Program-made: the position numbers and the translations under genes
In this document: positions 1,094 to 24,113 of the stretch, one piece after another
How the letters are laid out: the number at the start of each line of letters is the position of its first letter
Position numbering within the stretch: the stretch's first letter is position 1
NCBI RefSeq assembly: GCF_000739915.1
Contig: NZ_BBJT01000004.1
Coordinates: forward strand, 124,001-188,000
From: Paenibacillus chitinolyticus NBRC 15660
GTDB taxonomy: Bacteria; Bacillota; Bacilli; Paenibacillales; NBRC-103111
Reading direction: 5' to 3'
DNA length: 64,000 bases
Notes under the pieces: generated by a model
Seen by the model: only the letters and a program-made list of their open reading frames with translations
What the model was told of the DNA's origin: nothing
Databases searched by the model: none

Positions 1094-1525
1094 TTACTGT
1101 TCTGTTCTAATTCCTTGTCTTTCTAACCCAAGCTTCATTGCTTTTATGTGGGATTTCGAAGTTTTAAGTTCTTGCCGAGTGGCGCCAGTAAACGCTCTTG
1201 GTTTATTGGTATAATCAAATGAATAATAGTAACCCTGCCCAGTCTCCACTATCTCCACTACGTTCCTATTCCCATCTGAACGAATATTCTCAATTGAAAC
1301 TGTATCATCATTGATCATCTGTACTCTAATATTGTTTGGGTCAGTTAAACCACCATGATCCTTTTCACGTTCATACACCTTGGGCTCATATACGTCATAT
1401 ACAACTTCATCAATCTTCTTCATCATTGCTTCAACCGTGTTAGTGGCAACCTCATTTTTTAAAGCTAAATTTGCTTTCGTCTGTATGTATCGTTGAAGTT
1501 CTTTAATTGAATTAAAATCAGGCAT
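1094..1525 (-). CDS. Phage protein of unknown function between tail chaperone position and tape measure
   Basis: A 143-residue protein, start ATG after AGGAAA, whose first 8 bases overlap the end of the preceding gene. The N-terminal 50 residues are helical and charged. The middle is beta-rich (VQMINDDTVSIENI, VVEIVETGQGYYYSF). This general shape occurs in HK97 gp10-like neck or tail-completion proteins, but I do not see a diagnostic motif. The position directly upstream of the tape measure gene is where many siphoviruses carry a tail assembly chaperone or minor tail protein. The overlap suggests translational coupling. I found no convincing slippery heptamer for a G/GT-type frameshift. Confidence 0.7.
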   Translation of the reverse strand: MPDFNSIKELQRYIQTKANLALKNEVATNTVEAMMKKIDEVVYDVYEPKVYEREKDHGGLTDPNNIRVQMINDDTVSIENIRSDGNRNVVEIVETGQGYYYSFDYTNKPRAFTGATRQELKTSKSHIKAMKLGLERQGIRTEQ

Positions 1526-6794: not shown

Positions 6795-7274
6795 TTACTT
6801 TACAATTTTAACTTGAACAGCATTGTCACCGTTCAGTTTAGTTTTACCAATCACTTCAACAGTTAGATAGGCAGTAGTGTCAGCAGCGGCATAGAACACA
6901 AGCTTACCGCTAGGTTGTACATGTCCTTTATCTCCAACTTGAATAGAATTAAAGTCGCCGCGCGGAGAAGTACCACCTGTATAACCAATTGCAGTAACAG
7001 TAAAGATGTCACCGGCTACTTTCTCATAGGTACGGGGTTTTAAATTAGACCCCGCCTTATTAATGAAGTCACCTTCATTCTTGCTTTCATATTGATGACA
7101 TACGGAAGCCACCAATACAACACGGTCAGTCACCGCTGCTGGAAGTTTTAGTTCACCATTTACTTCATCCTGTACTACAAATTGCCCATTCTCCAAATCA
7201 ACCTTTGCTTTAAGTCGGCCATCTGGTGTACCAGACACACGATCCAGACGCACAATACCATATTTATTTGCCAT
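6795..7274 (-). CDS. Putative capsid decoration / head fibre protein
   Basis: A 159-residue beta-rich protein starting MANKYGIVRLDRVSGTPDG. Low helix content and position directly before the major capsid gene match decoration proteins that bind the outside of the shell. The protein has one Cys and no catalytic motif. A small terminator precedes it at 7297-7319, which suggests dosage tuning. Confidence 0.6.
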   Translation of the reverse strand: MANKYGIVRLDRVSGTPDGRLKAKVDLENGQFVVQDEVNGELKLPAAVTDRVVLVASVCHQYESKNEGDFINKAGSNLKPRTYEKVAGDIFTVTAIGYTGGTSPRGDFNSIQVGDKGHVQPSGKLVFYAAADTTAYLTVEVIGKTKLNGDNAVQVKIVK

Positions 7275-7296
7275 TTCTATCTGTTCCTCCTTAGAT

Positions 7297-7319
7297 TAAA
7301 AAACAGCCATCAAAGGCTG
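7297..7319 (-). terminator. Terminator between protease/scaffold and capsid genes
   Basis: Minus-strand CAGCC / GGCTG stem with a 6-base loop followed by TTTTTTAA. The short stem implies partial readthrough. Confidence 0.6.
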
Positions 7320-7328
7320 ATTAGTTTT

Positions 7329-8339
7329 TTACATATTGAACTTTGTAAGCTCGTCATTGCCAAGGTCTTTTTGCTTGGTTACAGAAAAGAAACTGCCACC
7401 AGTCGAATTGTTAAGCCTAATTGATTCCTTATACTTTTGAGCACAAATTTCATTCACTTTGAATTGAACTTTAGTGAACTCTTTAGCTTCCGCTACTTCG
7501 TTAACCAATGTAAGCTCTTGTTCACTTAGGCTTTCTTTTACCTCTGCAATCAAGGCGTTAATTTTGTCTACTTCTGCCTTCTCCAATGTGTCGTTCTTAT
7601 ACTTAGACAAATCATCTACTTGAGCAGTTAGCATTTCTTTCTCTTTCCCAAGTGTCGTTACCGCTTGATTCGCTTCATTTAGTTGAGCGGTAAGAGTCGC
7701 TACCTGGGCTTCGAGTTTTTCTTTTTCAATCTTCATTTCCTCTAGACTCACTTTTTCTTTTCCTCCTTTAGTCAATTGAGCAACTAATTTTAATGCCTTA
7801 CTTGATGGTTCTGCAGGAACCGATACAAGACAATCCGAAACTAATAAGTTCCCCGGATGGGCATCAATAATAAGCCAATTGTTTTCATCGACTCTATATT
7901 CTTGAGCAATCACTTCAACACTAAAATTTAGACCAGATGTTACATATAGCTCATTTATTACTTTCACTAGGTCTTCATTTCGTTTGCTGATCCTCGCTGT
8001 TCCATGTAATTCTGCAATCCCATTTTCATCATACTTCTTCTCAAAAGAAACGTAGTTCCCAATCTGTTGAGTAAAAAACTTATTCAGAAATTCGGAATAT
8101 TGATGTCCAAGACCATCATAGTCATTTTCAAGCAATCTTTCTAAATCGACAACCAGTGGAAGACCATTATATTTATTCTGATTCTGAACAATTTCATCGA
8201 TAAAGCTCTCAGTGAAATAGTAATTGTTCAGGTTCACTGCATTTCGCATGAGAAGAATGTCCATTTCCAGAAACAATGGATTACTGTTTTCTTCACTTAG
8301 AACTGTTTTTAGGGAATTCAATACAAGCTGTTTCTGCAA
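7329..8339 (-). CDS. Putative capsid maturation protease fused to scaffold coiled coil
   Basis: A 336-residue protein starting at TTG (8339) with a near-perfect site, AGGAGGTGATTGA. Residues 20-175 are beta-rich and contain 'LHGTARI' and 'TSGLNFSVEV', the pattern of the U35/prohead protease-like fold (a buried H and S in short beta strands). Residues 190-290 form a long coiled coil (EKEKLEAQVATLTAQLNEA). In HK97-type systems a protease with a C-terminal coiled coil doubles as scaffold. It lies between portal and capsid genes, which fits. Catalytic residues are not certain. Confidence 0.65.
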   Translation of the reverse strand: MQKQLVLNSLKTVLSEENSNPLFLEMDILLMRNAVNLNNYYFTESFIDEIVQNQNKYNGLPLVVDLERLLENDYDGLGHQYSEFLNKFFTQQIGNYVSFEKKYDENGIAELHGTARISKRNEDLVKVINELYVTSGLNFSVEVIAQEYRVDENNWLIIDAHPGNLLVSDCLVSVPAEPSSKALKLVAQLTKGGKEKVSLEEMKIEKEKLEAQVATLTAQLNEANQAVTTLGKEKEMLTAQVDDLSKYKNDTLEKAEVDKINALIAEVKESLSEQELTLVNEVAEAKEFTKVQFKVNEICAQKYKESIRLNNSTGGSFFSVTKQKDLGNDELTKFNM

Positions 8340-12533: not shown

Positions 12534-13742
12534 CTAATTTAGTTTTAGACTGTAACTGATTGATCTACCCTTATTCCGTTCATATACAGAAAAGTTAGCA
12601 CCGGCTTTAGCTCCTGTCATGAGTGAGTCCGAATACTCATCTGCTCCCATTACGCTAGGAATCTGAATTATTTCTATGTCATTCGTCAACCCTTCTCCTA
12701 CCGTTAAGGTTCCTGCATGGTGGAAATGCGCTATGTATAAATAGTCGATGAATTCTCTATGCAACAAGGATAAATCCCTAATGGCATTCTTTTTACCTTT
12801 TAACTGATGTCCATGCAACGCCCAAACATTATATCCGAGTACATCCAGTTTTACGTAATCCTTATCGTACAGCGGAGCCTCAATTCTTGGATTGTTTGCA
12901 AGCACATCGTGAACATAGTTCATAATCACTAATTCTAAATCCTCCGATGGATACTCGCCGCGATTACTGTTAAATGGCCTAATCTCCGAATGATTAGCCG
13001 ATGGCACATGATGATAGGTTACTCTCACATACTGAGACAATACATTGAGCCAGGATGCGATAAACTTACTAAATTTAATAGTCTGATCAATAAGTCCGCT
13101 TTGTATAGATTGCAATTGACTCGTTCGGAGTGTCATACCCTCAATTGAATCTGCACCATTGATAATATGTATATGTTCAAAACCATGTTGCCTAATGATT
13201 TCTAACGTTTCACCCATAAGCAGAGACATCCTGTCGCGCGCTATGTCTTCGTTATATTCATTTTTCAAGCTCTTAAAGTATTTACCGAAATGGATATCGG
13301 CAAAGGAGAGAACGCCAACCTTATCCCTTGTAGGTGGATAGATAATGGGTTGAAACTTTGGAACAGGAATCTTCTCGATAGAATCTTTAATCATGTCCCA
13401 CATTACTTCTCGTCTAGCTGCTTTATTTAGGTTCTTATTGAGCTCACTTTTTATAGTTTGAATCTTTTTGTATTCCTTTTGAGCCTCAAGCTTCTTTTCT
13501 TCTTGGAGCAATACAATACCATCGGGATTTAATTGAGCTTGATGCAAATCATACCCGCGCTTTAAAAGGTGATAATCTTTTCTCCACTTAGATTCAGAAA
13601 AATCTTCATTTGACTCAGCATTCATAACATCTCTAATTTGATGCCAATTATCTAATCCATAAATCTCCTTATCGTCTCCGAGACGCAATAGAAAACGATC
13701 TAAGCTTTCCTCTGAACCGCGTGTTAGATTGGAATGATTCAC
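12534..13742 (-). CDS. Calcineurin-like metallophosphoesterase (phage)
   Basis: A 402-residue protein. The N-terminal 100 residues are helical with a wHTH-like look. The metallophosphoesterase domain follows, with metal ligands in order: DIH (SFADIHFGK), NGAD (in place of GD), SANHSE (in place of GNHE), LHGHQ, and AHFHHAG. All two-metal ligand positions are represented. Such proteins in phages are often labelled SbcD-like or Mre11-like nucleases; the substrate here is not known. The gene lies between HU and the terminase operon and has its own terminator. Confidence 0.85.
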   Translation of the reverse strand: MNHSNLTRGSEESLDRFLLRLGDDKEIYGLDNWHQIRDVMNAESNEDFSESKWRKDYHLLKRGYDLHQAQLNPDGIVLLQEEKKLEAQKEYKKIQTIKSELNKNLNKAARREVMWDMIKDSIEKIPVPKFQPIIYPPTRDKVGVLSFADIHFGKYFKSLKNEYNEDIARDRMSLLMGETLEIIRQHGFEHIHIINGADSIEGMTLRTSQLQSIQSGLIDQTIKFSKFIASWLNVLSQYVRVTYHHVPSANHSEIRPFNSNRGEYPSEDLELVIMNYVHDVLANNPRIEAPLYDKDYVKLDVLGYNVWALHGHQLKGKKNAIRDLSLLHREFIDYLYIAHFHHAGTLTVGEGLTNDIEIIQIPSVMGADEYSDSLMTGAKAGANFSVYERNKGRSISYSLKLN

Positions 13743-17882: not shown

Positions 17883-19280
17883 AAAACCCCTTGCTTTAGC
17901 TATGGGGATGTAAGACGCTAAAAGGAATCCATAATAGACATCTTGCATATATCTAATGTACTGTGGCATTATTTAACATGGGCAAGTAGAGAATAACAAT
18001 AACATTGTATTTGACTACAGTAGGAAGTGTTCCCTCTAGATACATGTAAAATAGTATATTGAAAATCAGAGAGACAAGTAGGTGAATTATATGAGAATCG
18101 CATTCAAGTTTAGATTGTATCCAACCAAGCAACAAAAAGAGAAGATCGAATTCACTCTTGAACGTTGTAGGCTGCTCTATAATCGCCTACTCGAAGAAAG
18201 AATTTTAGCCTACAAAAATGAAGGAAGAAGTCTAAATTATTACGATCAAGCTAAAACATTCACAGAACGCAAAGTGTATATTCCAGCACTAAAACAAGTT
18301 CATTCGCAAGTGCTGCAAGATGCAGCTAATCGTTTAGATAAAGCATTCCAATCTTTCTTTCGTCGTGTAAAAAGTGGTGAAACTCCTGGATTTCCAAGGT
18401 TCAAACCACAAAAGCGATATGATTCATTTACATACCCTCAAGCTGGTTACTCTATTATTGGAAATAAAGTTAGACTCTCAAAAATTGGAGATGTGAAAAT
18501 AAAGCTACATCGCCAGCCACAAGGTAAAGTAAAGACTTGTACTATCACAGTGAAGAATGGGAAGTATTATGTCTGTTTTTCATGTGAGACTCCTGCTCAA
18601 AAACTTCCTGTATCTGATAAAAGGGTTGGTATTGACCTTGGGATTAAACATTTAGCAATAACTTCTGATGGTCAAATATTTGATTCACCAGAGTATCTTC
18701 GTAAGAGCGAAAATAAACTAAAACAATTACAACGTAATGTTTCAAATAAGATACGTGGATCAAACCGTAGAAAGAAATCTGTACTTCTTCTTGCAAAGTT
18801 ACATGAAAAAGTGGCAAATCAACGCAAAGATTATGCACATAAGATTTCTAGAAAATTGGTTAACCAATACGGATACATTGCTTTTGAAAAGCTCACTAAA
18901 ATTAAGATGTTAAAAAATCATAATCTTGCTAAAAGCATTGCTGATGCTAGTTGGAATCAACTTGTTCAATTTACAACGTACAAGGCTGAGAGTGCTGGTC
19001 GTGTAGTTGTCCAAGTAGATCCAAGAAATACATCTCAAGAGTGTAACAATTGTGGTCAAATCATAAAGAAGTCTCTTTCTGTTCGCATACACAACTGTAG
19101 TCATTGCGGATATGTTGAGGATAGAGATATAAACGCAGCAAAAAACATTCTTCAACGTACATTAGCAGTTTCGTAACGAAACCAAATATGTAAGGCTCGG
19201 ACAGAGCCTTCAGGGAGAGATGAGGATACGAGTCTCGATGATCTGAGAAGCCCTCGCCTTTAGGCATGGGGAGTTGTCAC
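17883..19280 (+). mobile_element. IS605-family element carrying tnpB only (IS1341-like); ends approximate
   Basis: The left end has a CCCC...TTTAGCTATGGGG hairpin (17887-17907), very close to the known left end of IS608-type elements. The right end has a CCCTCGCCTTTAGGCATGGG hairpin (19251-19270). Between them lies only tnpB and no Y1 transposase gene, so movement would need TnpA in trans. It interrupts the control region of the 204-aa phage gene. Exact boundaries and the target motif cannot be fixed from one copy. Confidence 0.85.
18091..19176 (+). CDS. tnpB: TnpB, RNA-guided endonuclease of an IS605-family element
   Basis: A 361-residue protein starting at ATG 18091 with AGGTG six bases upstream; a GTG at 18082 overlaps that site and is less likely. 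Numbering here counts from the GTG. The N-terminal helical domain carries 'LYNRLLEERI'. RuvC residues are intact: GIDLGIKHL (D185), AFEKL (E269), DRDINAAKN (D347-D349). The zinc finger has CNNCG and CSHCG (C321, C324, C339, C342). The length is normal, so the nuclease is probably active, guided by a right-end RNA. Confidence 0.95.
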   Translation: MRIAFKFRLYPTKQQKEKIEFTLERCRLLYNRLLEERILAYKNEGRSLNYYDQAKTFTERKVYIPALKQVHSQVLQDAANRLDKAFQSFFRRVKSGETPGFPRFKPQKRYDSFTYPQAGYSIIGNKVRLSKIGDVKIKLHRQPQGKVKTCTITVKNGKYYVCFSCETPAQKLPVSDKRVGIDLGIKHLAITSDGQIFDSPEYLRKSENKLKQLQRNVSNKIRGSNRRKKSVLLLAKLHEKVANQRKDYAHKISRKLVNQYGYIAFEKLTKIKMLKNHNLAKSIADASWNQLVQFTTYKAESAGRVVVQVDPRNTSQECNNCGQIIKKSLSVRIHNCSHCGYVEDRDINAAKNILQRTLAVS

Positions 19281-20174: not shown

Positions 20175-20203
20175 TATACAGGATGATATAAATATGTTAT
20201 AAT
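20175..20203 (+). promoter_or_regulatory. Promoter TATACA-N17-TATAAT for the 62-aa gene
   Basis: The -35 is TATACA at 20175-20180 and the -10 is TATAAT at 20198-20203, with a 17-base spacer. It lies about 40 bases upstream of the ATG at 20244. The same -35 hexamer and spacing occur before the mini-CRISPR. Confidence 0.65.
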
Positions 20204-20243: not shown

Positions 20244-20432
20244 ATGGAAATGTTTAAAACTTTCCTAACGCTATTGGGATTATTCATTAGTTATGGTGTA
20301 TTCCGAATAGCGAACAAAAAAAACAAGCTTGAGCTTAAAAAACTCAAACTTGAAATCCGTAAACTTGAACTAGAAGTTGCGGAAAAGGAAAAGAGCGCCC
20401 CAATTCCTCCAAGAAATGAAAAGCGCTCTTAG
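20244..20432 (+). CDS. Membrane-anchored coiled-coil microprotein (62 aa)
   Basis: A 62-residue protein with an N-terminal membrane helix (residues 5-24) followed by a strongly charged helix made of Leu-Glu-Lys repeats (residues 27-50) and a proline-rich tail. Start ATG with AGGAG about 11 bases upstream and a well-formed promoter at 20175. Unknown function. The layout resembles small phage proteins thought to anchor replication or lysis complexes at the membrane, but that is only analogy. Confidence 0.7.
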   Translation: MEMFKTFLTLLGLFISYGVFRIANKKNKLELKKLKLEIRKLELEVAEKEKSAPIPPRNEKRS

Positions 20433-20441
20433 TCCTAAAAC

Positions 20442-20467
20442 AGCAAGGAAGGGGAAACCCTTCCTGC
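20442..20467. other. Hairpin without T-tract after the 62-aa gene
   Basis: GGAAGGG and CCCTTCC pair around GAAA, extended by AGCA/TGCT. No T-run follows on either strand, so it is probably an mRNA 3' stabiliser or weak terminator. Confidence 0.45.
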
Positions 20468-20550
20468 TACCCAATAATACATGATTGTACATAAGGATTC
20501 AATGCCAAAGAAAGTACAGAAGAATTAATGTAACCTTTATTAAATATAAC

Positions 20551-20579
20551 TATACAATATTATAATTATGTGATATACT
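20551..20579 (+). promoter_or_regulatory. Promoter TATACA-N17-TATACT directly before the mini-CRISPR
   Basis: The -35 is TATACA (20551-20556) and the -10 is TATACT (20574-20579), spaced 17 bases. The expected start is about 20586, roughly 9 bases before the first repeat, so the transcript would begin almost at the repeat. Confidence 0.6.
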
Positions 20580-20594
20580 TGTTTATGTAAGGTA

Positions 20595-20694
20595 GTCGCA
20601 CTTTGTATGAGTGCGCGGATTGAAATAGGACTCTCCCTACGCTACTAGGAATCTTAATCAGTGTCACACCCTTTATGGGTGTGTGGATTTAAAT
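20595..20694 (+). CRISPR. Two-repeat mini-CRISPR (type I-C-like repeats) in a prophage, no cas genes
   Basis: Repeat 1 is 20595-20626 and repeat 2 is 20663-20694, each 32 bases, with one 36-base spacer (20627-20662). Repeat 1 starts GTCGCACT, forms a CGCACT/AGTGCG hairpin and ends GGATTGAAAT, the classic type I-C layout. Repeat 2 (GTCACACC..., ending GGATTTAAAT) differs at 8 positions. Two of these, positions 4 and 20, change together so that the stem is kept. No reading frame covers it. It could be a mini-array using host Cas proteins, or repeat-mimic RNA that blocks them. Confidence 0.85.
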
Positions 20695-20770
20695 GCAACT
20701 ATTGCTGGAGCCTATGGCATATTTAAAAGTGTGACAAGTGTAAAATAAACTGAAAGGACTATAACAGATT

Positions 20771-20929
20771 ATGAGTAAATTTACAGGGATGTGCCTTGCT
20801 GTCCTACTGTTTGGTATTGGTATGCTCATGTTTGCTTATTTTGATACTGCAAGTGGAGATATTCCAATGTACATAGTAGGAGCCTTGTGCATTATAACAG
20901 GCGCTTATGGTCTTCTTAGGGGCGAATAA
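20771..20929 (+). CDS. Two-helix membrane microprotein, DTxSGD family copy 1 (52 aa)
   Basis: A 52-residue frame from ATG 20771. Two hydrophobic segments (residues 6-23 and 31-49) flank a short acidic loop FDTASGD. The C-terminus is LLRGE. It is clearly related to the protein at 21633-21794: the same loop (DTxxGD), then VGAxC.I.G..G..R. The ribosome site (AAAGGA, about 13 bases upstream) is weak. It sits just after the mini-CRISPR. Confidence 0.65.
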   Translation: MSKFTGMCLAVLLFGIGMLMFAYFDTASGDIPMYIVGALCIITGAYGLLRGE

Positions 20930-22066: not shown

Positions 22067-22570
22067 CTATTCGGGATTTAGCAAATGGGTATTCTTTTTT
22101 AAATATTTCCAAGCCCATGGTTGTATGTTGCAGGCGAATCCATAATAGTCTCCAACTGAAGAAGCCTGGTATATCACTTGAGTGTGTATCAACCCACTTA
22201 CAACTCCGTTAAACAAGTCTAATTTTTGTGATCTTGTGTTATGAAAAAGATAGTATCTTAAAATAACTTTTTCTTCTTCGGTTAGACCATGTAGGTATTT
22301 TATGCGGAATTTATGCAACTTTCTGTCACCATTTTTTCCAGTGACAAAAGTAGTGAATTTGTAAATCAGATGAGTAATCAAAAAACAAAAAGATATGATA
22401 AAGGTTAAACCTATCCATGTCTTATATTTCACTGTAAAAGGATCTATTCCAAGCTGTTTTAATATGTCTACTGGCAAAAACAGCATTGCTGCAGAGGCTA
22501 AAACAATAGGAAACAAGTATAACGGCGTTAACTTTAGAATGTCCAATATTTTACCCATATCTAATCTCAA
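22067..22570 (-). CDS. SieB-like superinfection exclusion protein
   Basis: A 167-residue membrane protein. Residues 8-30 (ILKLTPLYLFPIVLASAAMLFL region) and 46-68 (KTWIGLTFIISFCFLITHLI region) are membrane helices. The LPVDILKQLGIDPFTVKYKTW link between them is typical of the SieB family (superinfection exclusion protein B). The C-terminal 90 residues are cytoplasmic. SieB proteins abort growth of related phages entering a lysogen. Start TTG at 22570 with an AGAAGG site, or ATG four codons later. It lies about 1.4 kb from the mini-CRISPR. Confidence 0.75.
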   Translation of the reverse strand: MRLDMGKILDILKLTPLYLFPIVLASAAMLFLPVDILKQLGIDPFTVKYKTWIGLTFIISFCFLITHLIYKFTTFVTGKNGDRKLHKFRIKYLHGLTEEEKVILRYYLFHNTRSQKLDLFNGVVSGLIHTQVIYQASSVGDYYGFACNIQPWAWKYLKKNTHLLNPE

Positions 22571-23504: not shown

Positions 23505-23729
23505 CTCCCAATGATTCATCTAATCCGTTTATTCAATCTGTCTATTTCTAGATCATGTTGACCAATCTTAGCAGCCAGATAGATCACCTGACAATGCCAT
23601 CATATCATAATTTATAATTATTGCAATCATTTATTATTTAATTCTAAATAGAACATATATTCCCTTGTATGTATAAAACTAAAGTTATACAATAACAGTA
23701 AAATAATATAATATGAGGTGTTTATTTGT

Positions 23730-24113
23730 ATGAGTAAACTACTTCTAGATGCTACATGTGACGATGGTAAAATGGTTAATCGTGGGGAAGTTTGGATGGT
23801 AAAGTTTGATGGGATTGGATCTGAGCAACGCGGTTTAAGGCCTGCACTGGTGATTTCTAATAATCGGGGCAATAAATATGGATCAACAGTTATTGTTTGT
23901 GCTATTACTGCTCAAGTACACAAAGCAAAATTGCCTACTCATGTTGTATTAAAAGCATCTCCAAACGGAACCATAAAGGATTCAGTTGTTATGCTTGAAC
24001 AGGTAAGAACAGTTGATAAGTCTAGGCTGCTACATAAGCTTGCTAGAGTTGGACCAATAACAATGGGCAAAGTAACCGAAGCTCATGCGGTTAGTTGTTC
24101 AGGCGATATATAA
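23730..24113 (+). CDS. MazF/PemK-family endoribonuclease toxin without a visible antitoxin
   Basis: A 127-residue protein started at ATG 23730 with GAGGTG nine bases upstream; a GTG at 23718 overlaps that site. The MazF core is clear: RGEVWMVKFD, then RGLRPALVISN with the conserved Arg, then VIVCAITAQ with the conserved Thr, and DSVVMLEQVRTVDKSRL. MazF proteins cut single-stranded RNA. Normally an antitoxin gene lies directly upstream in the same operon; none is visible between 23505 and 23729. Promoter-like TATACA and TATAAT lie upstream. Confidence 0.88.
   Translation: MSKLLLDATCDDGKMVNRGEVWMVKFDGIGSEQRGLRPALVISNNRGNKYGSTVIVCAITAQVHKAKLPTHVVLKASPNGTIKDSVVMLEQVRTVDKSRLLHKLARVGPITMGKVTEAHAVSCSGDI

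Follow-up and report, generated by a model that had tools for sequence, protein, structure and literature searches.

There is a small CRISPR array, with only two repeats and one spacer, in a prophage of Paenibacillus chitinolyticus NBRC 15660 that lies within the 64,000-nucleotide stretch of DNA analysed here (the window). Judged from sequence comparison and folding, this array is probably a type I-C mini-CRISPR without cas genes that was captured by a temperate phage, and it is predicted to serve as a Cas-dependent guide against related phages. In a host that provides type I-C Cas proteins, Cas5c would cut the array transcript into one crRNA comprising the handle of the first repeat (R1), the spacer and the stem of the second repeat (R2). 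This crRNA would direct Cascade and Cas3 to incoming phages with a matching copy of the small gene ORF1, resulting in superinfection exclusion, and the carrier phage would be spared by a missing TTC and by mismatches at its own site. R1 has kept the consensus handle that such a crRNA would carry and R2 the stem at which it would end, with the changed 3' end of R2 falling outside it. In the present lysogen, the array would be inactive.

Array anatomy and repeat family

Repeat R1 (GTCGCACTTTGTATGAGTGCGCGGATTGAAAT, positions 20595-20626) and the terminal repeat R2 (GTCACACCCTTTATGGGTGTGTGGATTTAAAT, 20663-20694) are each 32 bases long and lie on the forward strand, wherein they flank a spacer of 36 bases (20627-20662) that is homologous to ORF1 coding sequence. 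These letters and coordinates are exactly those reported in an earlier, sequence-only reading of this DNA. The two repeats are unlike at 8 of 32 positions (4, 8, 9, 11, 16, 20, 22 and 28), and the pair was not among the repeats listed by a general repeat search of the window. R1 has an intact consensus 3' handle (GGATTGAAAT), and the 3' end of R2 (GGATTTAAAT) is off consensus. Folding predicts a stem of seven pairs in both repeats and one further pair in R1, with energies of -10.0 kcal/mol (z -2.6) for R1 and -12.3 kcal/mol (z -3.5) for R2. There is no Rfam match to the window at gathering scores, and no tRNA was found in it.

In the genome, which comprises 6.43 Mb in 32 contigs and is 98.4% complete, a pattern derived from R1 and R2 occurs five times when at most three mismatches are allowed. 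Besides R1 and R2 themselves, the occurrences are three copies in a single further array (contig C30, 72604-72772), and the reversed pattern does not occur in this genome at the same threshold. The array is real and beyond chance. The locus corresponds to the viral record IMGVR_UViG_2848028059 and the window contains phage genes, and thus a single spacer is located between two repeats within a viral genome.

The earlier assignment of the repeats to type I-C agrees with the family to which R1 and R2 belong, whose arrays share contigs with csd1 (encoding Cas8c) in two genus-mates (G001 and G004) and one family-mate (G011). In one G011 array, the 33-base main repeat accounts for 20 of 24 copies; R1 departs from it by a single substitution and a single gap and has GCGCGG in common with it. 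R1 is also unlike a repeat of an order-mate (G195) at 2 of 32 positions. R2 is unlike the main repeat of the csd1 contigs of G001 and G004 at 4 of 32 positions, but a viral contig of 67.8 kb (L087) has a repeat, GTCACACCCTGTATGGGTGTGTGGATTGAAAT, from which R2 departs at just 2 of 32. The type I-C array of L087 (reverse strand, about 7000-7400) is the nearest relative of R2 that was found, and its repeats already have the A4/T20 form, which among the 104 family genomes is present in the window only. R1 and R2 therefore look like members of two repeat lineages.

The sequence-only reading had taken the joint change of stem positions 4 and 20 between the two copies as an argument for selection. 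The change itself is present, as both sides of pairs 4/20 and 8/16 differ between R1 and R2. However, the array of L087 already carries A4/T20, and thus the joint change at 4/20 says little in favour of selection on pairing at this locus. No repeat identical to R1 or R2 is found among the collected arrays of the host and its relatives. This lowers the claim that the element belongs with known mini-arrays but does not remove it, as the phage may have other hosts outside the collected set. Among viral contigs, the R1 core is found in the window's own record only. The R1-spacer-R2 unit has one match among annotated phages, which covers 35% of the query (the R2 part) and lies in an unannotated faecal phage record.

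The spacer and its resemblance to ORF1

ORF1 (20244-20432, forward strand) is a small gene for 62 amino acids located upstream of the array, and the spacer resembles the copy of this gene in a sister prophage of Paenibacillus sp. HGH0039 (genome G002). The best spacer matches outside the spacer itself are the two ORF1 copies, with 25 of 36 positions each, and no other site reached 22 in 377 kb searched on both strands (179 kb of host contig C30, 88 kb of host contig C29 and 110 kb of HGH0039). The site in the window's own ORF1 (20256-20291, forward strand) has the 5' flank TTT, and the site in HGH0039 has TTC directly 5' of it. The match is in frame with ORF1, reading RTLPTLLGILIS in the spacer, KTFLTLLGLFIS in the carrier's own copy and KILLTLLGLIIS in HGH0039. 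With the array masked, a score of 25 was reached over 198 kb by just one in 1000 dinucleotide-shuffled spacers, and in the surrounding 1.9 kb by none of 1000 shuffles and by none of 963 real 36-mers of the window. The spacer could simply be what is left of a gene that repeats interrupted in two places, but the repeats would then have come to lie at CRISPR spacing by accident, and we rejected this explanation.

The mismatches include spacer positions 2 and 5 for the HGH0039 copy and positions 2, 3 and 7 for the carrier's own copy. Given these positions and a score of 25/36, neither known ORF1 would be a good target itself, and the actual target would be a nearer relative of ORF1. The PAM-filtered spacer search that had been suggested thus yields a 25/36 site behind TTC in HGH0039 but no exact protospacer, and no protospacer better than 25/36 was found in the 377 kb, the annotated phages, the plasmids, or the viral-contig and genome-contig sets. 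Specifically, the spacer has no match among annotated phages, and an exact 20-mer from it is found only in the window's own viral record. A plasmid match of 31 bases (87% identity, E 0.1) in a Pectobacterium enzyme gene is taken as chance. A degenerate site pattern recovers only the spacer and the two ORF1 sites from the viral and genome contigs; the pattern was built from these same three sites, so this result means only that these sets contain no other close relative that fits it.

TTC is the canonical type I-C PAM according to the cited part of PMC8482600, although its table also lists TTT for one genus, and therefore self-protection through the lack of TTC may be incomplete. The notion that the spacer fits related viruses and not its carrier can be stated only as 25/36 with TTC in the sister prophage versus 25/36 with TTT in the carrier, there being no near-exact protospacer among the sequences searched. 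A target located beside the array was not seen as a general rule. When 38 spacers of five other loci were compared with the flanking DNA, two gave a match that 6 or fewer of 200 shuffles equalled. Neither match had TTC and the number is about the chance level, and such a rule was rejected.

The match to the 5' part of the neighbouring ORF1 raises the possibility that the array is a regulator, wherein the guide would send host Cascade to repress the carrier's own ORF1 rather than cut rivals. Such an arrangement resembles CreTA (PMC8501985 and PMC9458426), in which the CreA guide RNA has two divergent flanking repeats and its spacer partly matches a small gene next to it. However, a CreTA guide has a PAM-bearing match in the promoter of the neighbouring toxin gene and is associated with a cas operon. 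Here the match is in coding sequence, the own site has TTT rather than TTC and mismatches at three early spacer positions, ORF1 is not known as a toxin, and no cas operon was found in the genome by searches for csd1, csd2 and Cas1. Regulation of ORF1 is thus a very improbable role for the array.

The array site and its host

The HGH0039 prophage aligns to the window query with 90% identity over bases 1-443, which include ORF1 and both its sides, and with 97% identity over the last 77 bases. The alignment ends at TATGTAAGG (window position 20592) and resumes from TGCAACTATTG (20694/20695). Between these blocks, HGH0039 carries two small genes in some 490 bases free of repeats, whereas the window has 102 bases consisting of TA followed by R1, the spacer and R2. 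Two flanking pieces are kept beside the array, namely the promoter region ahead of it and the final 54 bases of a small gene (20695-20748, forward strand), which is whole in HGH0039 and is the second of the two genes there. Because this gene is cut in the window, we infer that the arrangement without an array is the older state.

The promoter-like site TATACA-N17-TATACT proposed earlier is present ahead of the array (20551-20579, forward strand) and has an extended -10 element. The scanned stretch has six such sites where 4.0 +/- 2.6 are expected, so this one means little on its own. Its region is mostly alignable with the HGH0039 prophage, and the changes there include the -35-like hexamer. 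A similar promoter-like site precedes ORF1 (20175-20203, forward strand), and the run of small genes has two twin sites of this kind. This run (window 20244-20929, with counterparts at locus L042 of HGH0039 and locus L043 of genome G027) is a row of genes for short, apparently membrane-bound proteins that varies between prophages.

One conceivable, though doubtful, origin is that the protospacer was the very place at which the phage acquired the array. A spacer of a host array would have recombined with its target in a small ORF1-like phage gene, copying the repeat-spacer-repeat unit into it. If so, the targeted gene would have been broken and its PAM lost in a single event that also placed the guide under the gene's own promoter, which would turn escape into a weapon. 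In keeping with this, the spacer lies near the place where the displaced gene's coding sequence would start, being 371 bases after its ORF1 counterpart versus 376 bases between the two promoter copies. However, the right edge jumps into the next gene, which a simple exchange does not explain, and the gene that HGH0039 now has there is related to ORF1 only distantly.

Other genes near the array were also noted. A SieB-like superinfection exclusion protein is encoded close to it (22067-22570, reverse strand; Pfam PF14163, E 1.8e-35), which suggests that the region may be an exclusion module, and a PemK/MazF-like toxin gene is located at 23718-24113 (forward strand). There is also an IS605-type OrfB/TnpB gene (18082-19176, forward strand) that is Cas12f-like by PADLOC profiles. 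We rejected it as a partner effector, as Pfam identifies an IS605-type transposon protein and nothing ties it to R1 or R2. The locus DNA has no match among annotated phages, nor does ORF1 by tblastn, and among viral contigs ORF1 is found in the window's own record only. A profile of the ORF1 family gives strong matches in three of 392 order genomes, namely the host (G000), G027 and HGH0039, the last with two genes. Its matches in G083, G130 and G249 are weak (E 0.002-0.008).

The statement in the sequence-only reading that cas genes are lacking holds for the whole host genome as judged by csd1, csd2 and Cas1, the three families searched, none of which has a match. The array's carrier thus lacks its own cas genes by these searches, and the array should be silent in the present lysogen. 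Csd1 is found in 20 of 104 family genomes and in three of five genus genomes (G001, G003 and G004), and the two genus members without it (the host and HGH0039) are the two with an ORF1 match. In a member of another genus (G027), csd1 occurs together with a more distantly related ORF1 (43% identity). The proposed check for host cas genes and a host array repeat gave no match for these cas genes, and repeats of the same family in the C30 array of the same genome.

This lack of csd1, csd2 and Cas1 matches is one of several observations that cause us to consider the array as an idle captured fragment, a fossil that the prophage carries along, its repeats divergent and its spacer outdated. The eight differences between R1 and R2, the altered 3' end of R2 and the failure to find a near-exact protospacer in the searched sequences are all consistent with such decay. 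Against this, both stems are kept, the R1 handle is intact, a promoter-like site precedes the array, the changed 3' end of R2 would not enter the crRNA, and type I-C arrays are found on other viral contigs as well. We regard a fossil as unlikely, and favour the guide against related phages, for which it also speaks that the repeat-spacer-repeat unit occupies the place of two small genes of the sister prophage just behind a promoter-like site. Against this guide stand the lack of any identical host repeat among those found, the poor quality of the HGH0039 ORF1 as a target, and the present host without a Cas1, Csd1 or Csd2 match.

Other phage-borne arrays and known systems

There is a second array in the same genome (C30, 72604-72772; about 12604-12772 of locus L006), with three identical repeats and a degenerate fourth, and no cas-like gene was seen by eye among the open reading frames around it. 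It sits in an apparent prophage of about 18-141 kb on C30 (limits set by eye), which we take to be of the SPbeta kind. The genes of this prophage include those for an MrpR-like regulator, an AgrB-like protein, portal, terminase, tape measure, ribonucleotide reductase, thymidylate synthase and integrase, and an identical stretch with the array is present in an IMG/VR viral record of 119,583 bases.

Spacer 2 of the C30 array matches the window at 1367-1403 (forward strand; 30/37, 5' flank TTC), and spacer 3 matches it in an exonuclease-like gene at 13582-13614 (forward strand; 30/33, 5' flank TTT). The corresponding matches in HGH0039 are 31/37 (ATC) and 29/33 (TTT), and the C30 prophage itself is matched less well (25/37 and 22/33). 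For spacer 1, no score exceeds 23/36. These two spacers are the only ones among 326 that match the window above 71%, where the 326 come from the arrays of 11 of 12 loci, with some counted twice due to the overlap of L011 and L052 and none obtained from L021 (33-base repeat). The 59 spacers of G011 add a single low-scoring match, which lies in the C29 stretch (25/33, flank TTG) and is taken as chance. A spacer from a type I-C array of G001 (L052) matches the SPbeta-like prophage at C30:39689 on the reverse strand (32/34 with TTC). Hence TTC is present at the matches of two spacers from other type I-C arrays, namely C30 spacer 2 on the window and this G001 spacer on the C30 prophage. Two prophages in one genome bear type I-C arrays with spacers that resemble one phage lineage.

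A generic two-repeat type I-C pattern finds seven stretches in six viral contigs, one of which is the C30 prophage record, although some viral records may include host DNA. The other arrays found by it include one with five repeats beside a repressor-like gene (L070) and one with three repeats and two similar spacers beside HTH-like genes (L071, 5108-5270), the genes in both cases being judged by eye from translations. L087 adds another viral contig with such an array. The arrays of L087 and L070 match the same unannotated faecal phage record as the R1-spacer-R2 unit, and that of L071 has no match among annotated phages. It had been suggested that similar elements should be present in related prophages. 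The close sister in HGH0039 has no repeats, but the second prophage of the genome and several viral contigs do carry type I-C arrays.

As its second reading, the sequence-only account had offered a repeat mimic. Transcripts of R1 would occupy Cas5c and Cas7 of type I-C hosts and thereby block immunity, as an RNA anti-CRISPR (Racr) does. A divergent repeat of a known subtype directly behind a promoter-like site, in a prophage without cas genes, is indeed like the solitary repeat units in the cited passages of PMC10651486, where a working type I-C case, RacrIC1, is reported. However, Racrs are described there as solitary repeats, and here two repeats are 36 bases apart. The mimic is less likely because the unit is repeat-spacer-repeat at the spacing normal for an array, and because its spacer is similar to a gene of the sister phage; a solitary repeat needs neither feature. 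We consider it an improbable account of the array. The first reading offered, a Cas-dependent weapon, is the one that fared better, given the resemblance of the spacer to a neighbouring gene of the sister phage with TTC.

The guide against related phages fits closely with the virus-borne mini-arrays in the cited passages of PMC6858448, which include those of the archaeal viruses SPV1 and SPV2 and of phages and prophages. The shared features are one spacer, two repeats and no cas genes, a spacer with homology both to a near relative of the virus and to a gene adjoining the array, and a promoter in front with no host-type leader seen. In contrast to those examples, the best match here is only 25/36, no identical host repeat was found, the carrier's host has no Cas1, Csd1 or Csd2 match, and the case is bacterial and of type I-C. 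Likewise, the cited passages of PMC11656645 describe the repeats of viral mini-arrays as identical to those of the host CRISPR system, and none identical was found here. Among the titles listed by literature searches there is none on this element, which is no proof of absence. Given the close fit, the array is probably a new case of an already known kind of viral weapon.

In this case of a bacterial prophage, it is possible to read from the sequence the site without an array, the reuse of a promoter region, a gene that resembles a target and why the carrier is likely to be spared (TTT in place of TTC). In addition, the array of a second prophage in the same genome matches the same phage lineage. 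This case makes it testable how phages capture pieces of arrays and whether they use them in CRISPR-dependent superinfection exclusion, and it shows phages bearing such guides in a host without a Cas1, Csd1 or Csd2 match.
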